In this document: positions 18,692-36,624 of the stretch, piece after piece
Layout: each line of letters begins with the position of its first letter
Position numbering within the stretch: the stretch's first letter is position 1
NCBI GenBank assembly: GCA_024123915.1
Contig: CP099650.1
Coordinates: forward strand, 2,480,001-2,544,000
Direction: 5' to 3'
Source of the DNA: Oxalobacteraceae bacterium OTU3CAMAD1
GTDB taxonomy: Bacteria; Pseudomonadota; Gammaproteobacteria; Burkholderiales; Burkholderiaceae_D
Length of the DNA stretch: 64,000 nt
Position numbers and translations under genes: made by a program
Notes under the pieces: generated by a model
What the model was told of the DNA's origin: nothing
What the model saw: only the letters and a program-made list of their open reading frames with translations
The model's database searches: none

Positions 18692-18709
18692 AATGTAACC
18701 GGTTACATT
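18692..18709. promoter_or_regulatory. LacI-type operator O1
   Basis: A perfect 18-bp palindrome AATGTAACCGGTTACATT, with the central CG step typical of LacI-family operators. An identical copy lies at 18744-18761. Confidence 0.85.
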
Positions 18710-18715
18710 CGCATC

Positions 18716-18733
18716 AAAGTAATCGGTTATATT
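18716..18733. promoter_or_regulatory. Degenerate LacI-type operator O2
   Basis: AAAGTAATCGGTTATATT differs from O1/O3 at three positions and lies between them, with centres 24 and 28 bp from its neighbours. Its 3' half (TATATT) could double as a -10 element. Confidence 0.65.
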
Positions 18734-18743
18734 TTTTAACGCA

Positions 18744-34700: not shown

Positions 34701-35517
34701 TGCGCTGAACGATGGCGGCTGGGACGGAGAATGGTATCGCCGCGCTTATTACGACAACGGCGCCGTCATCGGTTCCAAGGACAGCGACGAATGCCAGATC
34801 GACGCGCTGGCGCAGGCGTGGGCCGTGATCTCCGAGGCGGCGCCACCGGCACGGGCGGCACAGGCGCTCGACGCGCTGGAGCAACGGCTGGTGTCCGAAC
34901 AGGATGGCCTGATACGGCTGCTGACACCTGCTTTCGTCAACACGCCCAACGATCCGGGCTACATCAAGGGTTACGTGGCGGGCGTGCGGGAGAACGGTGG
35001 CCAGTACACCCATGCGGCATGCTGGGTGGTGCGCGCGATGGCCGAAGCGGGACGCCGCGACCGCGCCGCGCCGCTGCTGGAGATGCTCAGCCCAGTGACC
35101 CATGCGCGCGACATGGCGGCGGTGGCCGTTTATCAGGTCGAGCCGTATGTCATCGCGGCCGATGTTTACGGCGAGGCGCCGCATGTGGGGCGCGGCGGCT
35201 GGACCTGGTACACAGGATCGTCCGGCTGGATGTACCGGGTGGGGCTTGAGTCGGTGCTGGGATTCAGCATCGAAGGCGGCGACACCATTGTGATGGCGCC
35301 ACGCATCCCGGACGACTGGCCGGAGTTCAGCATCCGCCATCAGTTGCCCGATGGCGGCGGCAGCTACGAGATCAAGGTACTCAATCCCGGGCGCAGCGCC
35401 AAGGACGTCGTATCGGTTACCCTTGACGGCACGGCGCTCGCGGCCGACGACGGCGTGGCGCGCATTCCGCTGCTGCGCGATGGCGCGGTCCATCGCGTTG
35501 AACTGGTGTTGGGTTGA
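31720..35517 (+). CDS. GH94 phosphorylase, probable 1,2-beta-oligoglucan phosphorylase
   Basis: A 1265-aa cytoplasmic protein (no signal peptide or membrane helices). Two beta-supersandwich-like regions precede an (alpha/alpha)6 barrel. Strong GH94 signatures are GFGFLVSESGAGYTW, LTPWSNDPIRDPHGEALYLRDED, GTGDWNDGMNRVGREG (the DWND motif, residues 939-942, in the general-acid region) and GSSGWMYRVGLESVLGF. These match the C-terminal phosphorylase part of cyclic beta-1,2-glucan synthases (NdvB) more than cellobiose phosphorylases. The GT84 and membrane parts of NdvB are absent. The reaction expected is release of glucose 1-phosphate from beta-1,2-oligoglucans. ATG 31720 is preferred over upstream GTG 31690. 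Confidence 0.85.
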   Translation: MNNRLENTFARGARLLSNGSFTTLITGAGMGFSRVGDMALSRWSGDRVEDGEGSFVYLRDTVSGEVWSLGLQPGGPGDAVRTSGGEAGSFWIGVSAHGIAAHMEIAVDPARDLELRSVVLKNTGSTERNIEVTSYLEVVLNRQADEASHPAFSKLFVQTEHDAATGALLARRRPRGEGDAALWMVHAAAGGAAAGFETDRTRFVGRGRELRSPAGMDGELSGTAGNVLDPAFSLRRAVTLAPGAHASVAFILGAADSREHALALAGGLDPADRAPINAARAAQQALEQRLGLSSDDATYLQRLAGAMLYGEPAVRAPRHTAREVETSADIASVLSSYALPAGPLAVLWVDGADDANARLLLRARAYWAVHGFKVDLLLLDRDGAYKDVEGVHVRKPEKFKKQDLALIEMTALLVVRGRMPVLDVDVGAAAQPPAMRTAQADGPATVPGRAVLHHFNGYGGFTDAGDEYVIRMDWSAADGLRRPPLAWTNAISNEGFGFLVSESGAGYTWSRNSRVHRLTPWSNDPIRDPHGEALYLRDEDTGQYWSPVPGPAPACAGYEAAHGFGYTRFNHFSHGLEQDTVMFVPRHEPVKIVRVRVTNRDAVARRVSLFSYQRLVLGGTPAESSRFVITELDASGTLLATNPLAGQFADGVTFAAALPGDGAAVHHSADREAFIGQHGDLAKPVALADAQLNGATGAGLDPCAAFQTTHDLAPGATLEWVVLLGETQERATALELVRRYAAPGAVQQALEEITAFWRDTVGAVQVRTPVAAIDLMQNGWLAYQNLSCRIWGRSAFYQSGGALGYRDQLQDSSAMIYARPDLTRQQIRIHAAHQFVEGDVLHWWHTAPLERGLRTRFSDDLLWLPYVTAFYIKTTGDWSVLDEVEPFLTAPLLEEGEDEVYLKPSLSGESAVVYEHCCRALDRSLTQGAHGLPLMGTGDWNDGMNRVGREGRGESVWMGFFLSRIIKDFLPICERRGDTARVAIYSAYHDHLDHALNDGGWDGEWYRRAYYDNGAVIGSKDSDECQIDALAQAWAVISEAAPPARAAQALDALEQRLVSEQDGLIRLLTPAFVNTPNDPGYIKGYVAGVRENGGQYTHAACWVVRAMAEAGRRDRAAPLLEMLSPVTHARDMAAVAVYQVEPYVIAADVYGEAPHVGRGGWTWYTGSSGWMYRVGLESVLGFSIEGGDTIVMAPRIPDDWPEFSIRHQLPDGGGSYEIKVLNPGRSAKDVVSVTLDGTALAADDGVARIPLLRDGAVHRVELVLG

Positions 35518-35526
35518 GGGGAAACC

Positions 35527-36624
35527 ATGGCAGGAGTAGACATTCGCGGCATACGCAAGGGGTTCGGCCAACAGCCCATCCTGCGCGGTATAGACCTGAG
35601 CATCGCCGACGGCGAGTTCGTGGTGTTCGTCGGGCCGTCGGGTTGCGGCAAATCGACCTTGCTGCGCACGATCTGCGGGTTGGAAACCGCCGACGAAGGC
35701 ACGGTGAGTATCGGCGGTCGCGACATGACGCACGTGACGCCCGCCGCGCGGGGCATCGCGATGGTGTTCCAGAGCTATGCGCTGTATCCGCACATGACGG
35801 TATTCGACAACATGGGCTTCGCGCTGAAGATGGCGGGACTGTCGCGCGACGAGATAAGGACCAAGGTGGAGCAGGCGGCGGCCACGCTGCGTATCGAGCC
35901 GCTGTTACAGCGTAAGCCCAAGGAGCTGTCGGGCGGGCAGCGGCAGCGGGTGGCGATCGGGCGCGCGATCGTGCGTCAGCCGCAGGTGTTCCTGTTCGAC
36001 GAGCCGCTGTCCAATCTCGACGCCTCGCTGCGGGTGCAGATGCGCATCGAGCTGAAAAACCTGCACCGCACCCTGGGCAGCACGATGATTTATGTGACCC
36101 ACGACCAGGTGGAGGCGATGACCTTGGCCGACCGCATCGTCGTGCTGCGCGGTGGGCAGGTGGAGCAGGTGGGGGCGCCGCTGGATTTGTATCAGCGGCC
36201 GGCCAATATGTTCGTCGCCGGCTTTCTCGGTTCGCCGGCGATGAATTTCCTGACTGGCGTGGTGGAGCTGCTGGCAGGGCAGGCGATGGCGGTGCGGCTG
36301 GCCGGCGGCGCGCTGGTGCCGATCGGCGCACGCGATGGACTGGCGCCCGGATCGCCGGTGTCGCTCGGCGTGCGCGCCGAGCACATGGCGCTGGCGCCGC
36401 CGGATTCGGCAGGTGGCGGTGCCGCCGGCATTCCGGTCACGGTGCAGGCGGCGGAGTTGCTGGGCGACGCCAGCTACATTTACCTGACGCCCGACGGTGG
36501 CACGACCCAGCTGATTGCAAGGGTGGATGCCGACGCGCGGTGGCAGGCCGGGCAAACAGCGGTGATCCGCGTCGAGCAGGCCCGTTGGCACGTCTTCGAT
36601 GATTCCGGACAGGCCGTCTATTAA
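35527..36624 (+). CDS. CUT1 ABC transporter ATPase (MalK/UgpC-like)
   Basis: A 365-aa ATPase. Walker A GPSGCGKST, signature LSGGQRQRVAIGRA, Walker B VFLFDEPLSNLD and the H-loop in YVTHDQVEAM are present, followed by a C-terminal OB/TOBE regulatory region. It is the only ATPase in the locus and completes the importer encoded by the binding protein and two permeases, despite the intervening enzyme genes. It starts 9 bp after GH94. Confidence 0.94.
   Translation: MAGVDIRGIRKGFGQQPILRGIDLSIADGEFVVFVGPSGCGKSTLLRTICGLETADEGTVSIGGRDMTHVTPAARGIAMVFQSYALYPHMTVFDNMGFALKMAGLSRDEIRTKVEQAAATLRIEPLLQRKPKELSGGQRQRVAIGRAIVRQPQVFLFDEPLSNLDASLRVQMRIELKNLHRTLGSTMIYVTHDQVEAMTLADRIVVLRGGQVEQVGAPLDLYQRPANMFVAGFLGSPAMNFLTGVVELLAGQAMAVRLAGGALVPIGARDGLAPGSPVSLGVRAEHMALAPPDSAGGGAAGIPVTVQAAELLGDASYIYLTPDGGTTQLIARVDADARWQAGQTAVIRVEQARWHVFDDSGQAVY

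Follow-up and report, generated by a model that had tools for sequence, protein, structure and literature searches.

Many Gram-negative bacteria produce beta-1,2-glucans, but few pathways that degrade them have been described. Here we compare the closest described systems with a ten-gene operon, probably for use of these glucans, found in a 64,000-nucleotide stretch of the genome of a soil-type bacterium, Oxalobacteraceae bacterium OTU3CAMAD1 (GCA_024123915.1, contig CP099650.1, positions 2,480,001 to 2,544,000; hereafter the window). The Gram-positive Listeria innocua, which has no TonB receptor, combines in lin1839-1841 an ATP-binding cassette (ABC) importer, phosphorolysis by glycoside hydrolase (GH) family 94 and a beta-glucosidase (Lin1840, of family GH3), and its solute-binding protein (SBP) Lin1841 is described as binding sophoro-oligosaccharides (PMC12369401). 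The cluster SGR_2422-2427 of Streptomyces griseus, also Gram-positive, has an ABC importer with a Lin1841-type SBP, a protein of a beta-1,2-glucanase family (GH193 in place of GH144) and a GH1 enzyme, SGR_2426, shown to prefer sophoro-oligosaccharides, with Gln229 and Trp291 at its subsite +1; a TonB receptor and a phosphorylase are not named for it in the accessible text of the same paper. For the IaSGT cluster of Ignavibacterium album (IALB_1177-1187), a pathway has been proposed with a TonB transporter, GH144, an ABC importer including a Lin1841 homologue, and a synthase-type phosphorylase homologous to the C-terminal part of cyclic glucan synthase; this cluster also has a GH35 transferase and two GH144s, and the paper gives a putative GH3 beta-glucosidase in its introduction but no beta-glucosidase homologue later on (PMC8861115). 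In Xanthomonas, XcSGL (XCC2207) is reported as specific for beta-1,2-glucan and was characterised as a single enzyme, the only gene cluster mentioned with it being an unrelated one (PMC12102758).

The window operon resembles the Listeria genes in its ABC importer with a related SBP, its GH94 and its beta-glucosidase, and differs from them in a TonB receptor, a GH1 beta-glucosidase and an extra exported enzyme of 1054 amino acids (aa), here called the large enzyme. On these points the initial annotation, made from the sequence alone, rightly set the locus apart from the Listeria route. It does not stand as a new kind of system, since a TonB transporter, GH144, ABC importer and synthase-type GH94 had already been proposed together for I. 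album, and its distinctness thus holds only against Listeria. Against the I. album cluster, the window locus stands out through its lacI, its GH1, the order of its genes and, most of all, the large enzyme, none of which is mentioned in the accessible text of PMC8861115. The core of the locus occurs in Xanthomonas, where XcSGL and the solved binding protein Xac-MalE (3uor) are close homologues of the window GH144 and SBP. A literature search, with subscription literature mostly outside its reach, returned no description of this proteobacterial locus, and we place its novelty relative to known pathways in the large enzyme, conserved beside GH144, SBP and permeases, also in a second proteobacterial class.

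Organisation of the operon

The window lies in a single-contig genome of 7.48 Mb. Among named organisms, strains of Duganella come nearest to it (89% identity for the large enzyme in Duganella sp. CF517), and the host is taken to be Duganella-like. The ten genes, all on the + strand, span positions 18779-36624 in window coordinates. Domain names are from Pfam and NCBIfam, and signal peptides and the lipobox were read by eye, without a predictor:

18779..19786, +, LacI-family regulator (PF00356, PF13377)
19846..22698, +, Oar-like TonB-dependent outer-membrane receptor (PF13620, CarboxypepD_reg; PF25183, OMP_b-brl_4; PF00593, TonB barrel)
22713..24185, +, GH144 endo-beta-1,2-glucanase, predicted exported (PF10091, homology, signal peptide)
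24182..25468, +, CUT1 solute-binding protein, probable lipoprotein (Pfam; lipobox LASC)
25465..26340, +, MalF/UgpA-type permease (Pfam and NCBIfam)
26337..27167, +, MalG/UgpE-type permease (Pfam and NCBIfam)
27164..30328, +, large exported GH15-like enzyme, no named family (F5/8C domain, fold and profile comparison, signal peptide)
30353..31723, +, GH1 beta-glucosidase, predicted cytoplasmic (TIGR03356, 588.9 bits, cutoff 478.5; no signal peptide)
31720..35517, +, stand-alone GH94 phosphorylase of the cyclic-glucan-synthase type (PF06165 and PF17167; no signal peptide)
35527..36624, +, UgpC/MalK-type ABC ATPase (NF008653, 467.9 bits, cutoff 432)

This agrees with the initial annotation, which had read ten co-directional genes with mostly 4-base overlaps and whose family names are confirmed by Pfam and NCBIfam. 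Five of the nine junctions overlap by 4 bases (GH144/SBP, SBP/MalF, MalF/MalG, MalG/large enzyme and GH1/GH94), and the remaining ones leave 59, 14, 24 and 9 bases between genes. The starts of GH144 (22713), SBP (24182), MalF (25465), MalG (26337) and GH94 (31720) are refined positions. The next named gene downstream, SdpI/DUF1648 (36986-37711), is unrelated.

Evidence for beta-1,2-glucan as the probable substrate

The GH144, SBP and GH94 each match beta-1,2-glucan proteins, so that three separate genes point to the substrate that the initial annotation had proposed from GH144 and GH94. The GH144 matches PF10091 with 273 bits (cutoff 27) and aligns over nearly its full length with XCC2207 at 641 bits and 60% identity (268/447 aligned residues), the next match scoring 219 bits; this closeness to a beta-1,2-glucan-specific enzyme argues against activity on another linkage only. 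The XcSGL clan residues E239, F286 and Y367 correspond to E219, F266 and Y347 in the window protein; of 79 aligned GH144s, 78, 78 and 79 respectively retain them and 78 retain the base candidate E146, the misses being gaps in one locus (L052) where the contig is cut. The solved XcSGL chain shows Gln at the position of E239 and is taken to be a mutant. We know of no GH144 or synthase-type GH94 that acts on another linkage. Another GH144 lies ~68 kb downstream (L088:8508-10145; genome C1, about 2572507-2574144) and shares 49% identity with the one in the operon; no sugar-related Pfam domain was found among the neighbours examined.

The GH94 carries PF06165 and PF17167, with two supersandwich stretches. 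Its highest score is to the Agrobacterium cyclic glucan synthase (855 bits, over an alignment that also takes in the non-catalytic supersandwich part of the synthase), against 291 and 265 bits to cellobiose and chitobiose phosphorylases and 48 bits to cellodextrin phosphorylase; this ranking of scores, which is not a tree, argues against a grouping with cellodextrin or other phosphorylases. The DWNDG motif aligns with that of the Agrobacterium enzyme, D939 and D942 are invariant in 14 aligned sequences, and D942, the second Asp of the motif, is the counterpart (chain numbering shifted by 19) of D2528, the catalytic Asp of the synthase, for whose GH94 domain phosphorolysis has been reported (PMC11842490). 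No SOGP-named chain is among the 20 listed solved relatives, although absence from such a list is not proof. The window protein shares the GH94 half of cyclic glucan synthases, without their GH189 domain or transferase length, and is presumably a soluble degrader, though such proteins are often named synthetase; stand-alone synthase-type phosphorylases are carried in databases under the name of synthases.

The host genome also encodes a 2939-aa protein with PF10091, two PF06165 stretches and PF17167, and no transferase domain named by Pfam. Because this protein scores 2041 bits to the Agrobacterium cyclic glucan synthase, the host seems to produce cyclic glucan, and hence to make what the operon degrades. 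Recent fission of the window GH94 from the host synthase is unlikely, given 41-43% identity to the latter, with nearly the whole 1265 aa aligned, against 62% to a stand-alone protein of Massilia and 57-59% to those of Methylocaldum. Glucan production of the OpgD type by the host was rejected, as PF04349 (OpgG/D) finds no match in its genome. A third GH94 (792 aa; L089:9555-13336), beside an MFS sugar transporter and 26% identical to the window GH94, is probably a cellobiose-type phosphorylase.

The locus encodes a complete CUT1 importer consisting of SBP, two permeases and a MalK-type ATPase. The best solved relative of the SBP is Xanthomonas 3uor (517 bits), followed by Lin1841 (207 bits), and it is predicted to bind sophoro-oligosaccharides. 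The receptor has the barrel domains PF25183 and PF00593 and no match to the plug domain PF07715 at E 0.001; at the same threshold Pfam finds no SusD-type surface protein among the ten genes, and the locus does not qualify as a SusC/SusD locus. The specificity of Xac-MalE is listed as unknown (PMC7676653). Since 3uor is 75% identical to the SBP beside GH144 in X. albilineans and X. chitinilytica (L028 and L038), and XCC2207 is 89-90% identical to the neighbouring GH144s, the Xanthomonas importer is probably a sophoro-oligosaccharide importer, a likely reassignment for a solved protein of unlisted specificity.

Taken together, we consider it likely from these homologies that the window genes form a substrate-induced operon for scavenging beta-1,2-glucan. 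Judging by position, LacI would repress from two upstream operators, and the Oar-like receptor may carry cyclic or linear beta-1,2-glucan across the outer membrane. The exported GH144 would cut the glucan endolytically to sophoro-oligosaccharides, as shown for its 60% identical homologue, and the large exported enzyme may take off a linkage or end resistant to GH144. The SBP and UgpC-powered permeases would import the oligosaccharides, by homology to Lin1841, and family chemistry predicts that the cytoplasmic GH94 would phosphorolyse them to glucose 1-phosphate and that the cytoplasmic GH1 would split leftover short chains. Several observations weigh against this scheme: the SBPs of 78 loci share no more than 31-36% identity with Lin1841; among the core members the receptor, with its predicted cargo, varies most (about 32-39% identity outside Oxalobacteraceae); and most relatives lack a GH94 inside the fetched flank. 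As GH94 was found there in only 12 of 80 loci, all from Duganella or Pseudoduganella, phosphorolysis is not a general part of the system.

Conservation across genomes

A scan with the large enzyme found 88 relatives, and 80 loci were kept. On the same strand and within 10 kb upstream of it, GH144, SBP, MalF and MalG occur together in 78 loci, lacI in 69 and the receptor in 74; the two loci without the full core (L039, L047) are short contigs. This recurrence indicates that the grouping is beyond chance. Of 398 sampled Pseudomonadota genomes, 12 have a match to the large enzyme at 1e-20, and 11 of them, own genome included, reach ortholog level (>1000 bits). GH144, SBP, MalF and MalG adjoin it in 10/11, and the eleventh locus (G373, L113) begins at a contig end. 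Four of those ten (L110, L111, L112 and L114) come from genomes outside the class of the window but within its phylum, probably alphaproteobacteria. The core together with GH1 is also present in another five loci from Oxalobacteraceae (L118-L122). The locus, conserved and open to testing, is shared by beta- and gammaproteobacteria and by another class of Pseudomonadota (probably alpha).

Among 40 genomes of the host's genus, 12 contain both the large enzyme and a stand-alone synthase-type GH94 (1272-1490 aa), and the other 28 contain neither (Fisher p 1.8e-10, ignoring shared ancestry). A synthase-length GH94 frame (2880-2998 aa) was found in 39/40, the fortieth genome (83% complete) having it broken across frames. 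A comparison of 23 carriers of the large enzyme covered five of Duganella type, all with both synthase-length and stand-alone GH94 frames, and 18 of Xanthomonadales type, ten of which have a synthase-length frame, seven no GH94 and one only an 800-aa frame. No stand-alone frame with a synthase-type GH94 score was found in the 18 Xanthomonadales-type genomes searched, a further difference between Xanthomonas and the window locus; a 1276-aa frame in G596 scores 189 bits to GH94, like the cellobiose type, against about 390 for the synthase type. On this basis the system seems to exist in two forms, without the phosphorylase in Xanthomonadales and with it in Duganella-type bacteria. OpgG/D-family genes occur in 13/18 Xanthomonadales-type versus 0/5 Duganella-type carriers.

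The large enzyme

The large enzyme is composed of an N-terminal beta domain, an F5/8C domain (residues 189-301), a supersandwich with an (alpha/alpha)6 barrel, and a C-terminal beta domain. Only F5/8C passes its cutoff and the protein falls below every enzyme-family cutoff tested, in keeping with its initial description as unassigned. Sub-cutoff matches are to TIGR01577 and to PF17389 (GH78; 21.2 bits against a cutoff of 24.5), and the latter is passed by two of nine relatives (26.9 and 26.7 bits). PF00723 (GH15) has no match in the large enzyme at E 0.001 or in the nine relatives at E 0.1. Profile-profile comparison favours GH15 (12 sequences; 95.8%, E 8e-9) over GH94 (14 sequences; 64%), GH144 (0.9%) and GH65 (0.2%, from three sequences only), although the GH15 match varies by subset, with 90.5% for five sequences of ~610 aa, 17.1% for five others and 0.4% for two long ones. 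In the hhalign alignment W632, R634, D635 and E915 each fall on the identical residue in a GH15, the Glu aligned with E915 being presumably the GH15 general base; the alignment does not pick out a general acid, as E752 stands opposite Phe and D764 in a gap. R634, D635 and E915 are invariant in the large-enzyme alignment, and E752, E915 and D635 in 62/62 sequences.

Fold alone does not decide the family and was set aside as a guide, as the top family changes with region and tool: Foldseek ranks GH15 first for the whole protein and GH94 first for the catalytic half, and a VIA structure comparison puts GH65, GH78 and GH15 within about 2 Z of each other. Searching the PDB with a profile of the catalytic half gave two matches, neither of use (best E 1). 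Profiles favour a distant relative of GH15 (glucoamylase, glucodextranase, dextran dextrinase), with which the large enzyme shares the fold class, WxRD and the Glu at E915, but from which it differs in the missing PF00723 match, the extra N-terminal beta and F5/8C domains and the unaligned general acid. It is a candidate for a new glycoside hydrolase family. Matches at E 0.001 number 4239 among 8000 scored candidates, some perhaps through F5/8C only or to paralogues. Three paralogues form a sister group, 33-35% identical over the main match (L115, L116 and L117). The 20 kb fetched around them contain no GH144, and the neighbours examined are mixed, so that the wider family is not tied to beta-1,2-glucan.

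Alternative readings

The role of the large enzyme bears on the exact target of the operon. The placement of a GH15-like enzyme, of alpha-glycosidase type, beside a beta-1,2-glucanase suggests, rather than shows, a system for alpha-1,6-cyclised beta-1,2-glucans, in which GH144 would open the ring by cutting beta-1,2 linkages and leave its single alpha-1,6 bond to the large enzyme. We entertain this tentatively, as a possibility that fits the GH15 profile match, the aligned R634-D635 and E915 and the invariant acidic residues; the remaining enzymes of the locus would not be expected to act on an alpha-1,6 bond. Such glucans have been described in Ralstonia, Xanthomonas and Cereibacter (PMC11842490), which belong to the beta-, gamma- and alphaproteobacteria, and most Xanthomonadales-type carriers have an OpgG/D-family gene, in a family that does not separate OpgG from the ring-closing OpgD. 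On the other hand, the profile match depends on the subset, Duganella-type carriers and the host itself lack an OpgG/D gene, and a pocket-type GH15 would require an alpha-1,6 glucose at a free end. The fuller proposal is rather unlikely as a whole: that the large enzyme founds a new family, a distant GH15 cousin cutting the alpha-1,6 bond, and that the block of GH144, SBP, permeases and large enzyme is a widespread proteobacterial system for dismantling ring glucans. Against both readings weigh the passing of PF17389, and not PF00723, in two of the nine relatives and the unaligned candidate acid. One of the ring glucans concerned is a factor in plant virulence. If the proposal is true, 'MalE' would be the wrong name for the importer of Xanthomonas, and the enzyme may help explain how ring glucans are dismantled. 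A doubtful option is that the large enzyme is instead an exo-acting beta-1,2-glucan hydrolase trimming GH144 products to importer size. Its company of GH144 and importer in 78/80 loci, the supersandwich and (alpha/alpha)6 fold that its catalytic half shares with the beta-active GH94 and GH116, and the Foldseek ranking of that half are consistent with this, but profile comparison prefers GH15 over GH94, stereochemistry is not readable from fold, and GH1 and GH94 already supply exo action inside the cell.

As regards the source of the glucan, recycling of the cell's own cyclic beta-1,2-glucan in place of foreign glucan would be in line with the 2939-aa synthase-like host protein and the synthase-length frames across the genus. 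We regard it as unlikely, since nearly every genome in the genus sample has the synthase but only 12/40 the locus, and a receptor implies that glucan is taken up from outside. Broad specificity is common among GH1 enzymes, which leaves some room for another glucan, be it a plant beta-glucan or, on the model of the X. citri 'MalE', maltose/trehalose. This is very improbable, given that the specificity of 'MalE' is itself tabulated as unknown (PMC7676653) and that 3uor so closely resembles the SBPs found beside GH144 in other Xanthomonas species. Scavenging of beta-1,2-glucan from outside the cell is our preferred reading.

Regulation

Upstream of lacI the following features were found:

18629..18679, +, two overlapping sigma-70-like promoter matches, 9/12 each (consensus match only)
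18694..18707, no strand, operator TGTAACCGGTTACA, perfect palindrome (pattern search)
18718..18731, no strand, degenerate third operator-like site, 3 mismatches (pattern search)
18746..18759, no strand, second operator TGTAACCGGTTACA, perfect palindrome, 52 bases from the first (pattern search)

The two promoter matches compare with a mean of 0.3 in shuffles, and three operator matches at a laxity of 3 mismatches were reached by 2/100 shuffles. Throughout the 7.48 Mb genome, sites with <=1 mismatch to TGTAACCGGTTACA are limited to the two before lacI, and a reversed-pattern control gave 0. The pair (<=1 mismatch each) is kept in 12/12 Duganella/Pseudoduganella loci. This genome-unique, conserved pair just before lacI suggests that LacI is a dedicated, autoregulated repressor. 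At <=2 mismatches a site occurs in 27/67 loci, namely those 12 and 15/55 others, and conservation of the operator beyond the Duganella group was accordingly rejected.

Other features of the window

A DUF4297 and HerA gene pair at 44499-47646 (PADLOC, 414.6 and 907.2 bits) is a candidate anti-phage defence system. It lies in a low-GC stretch (0.54) among four tRNA-Asn genes, which looks like a tRNA-associated island. Near the right end of the window, an IcmF/TssM-like type VI secretion gene occupies 58462-62229.

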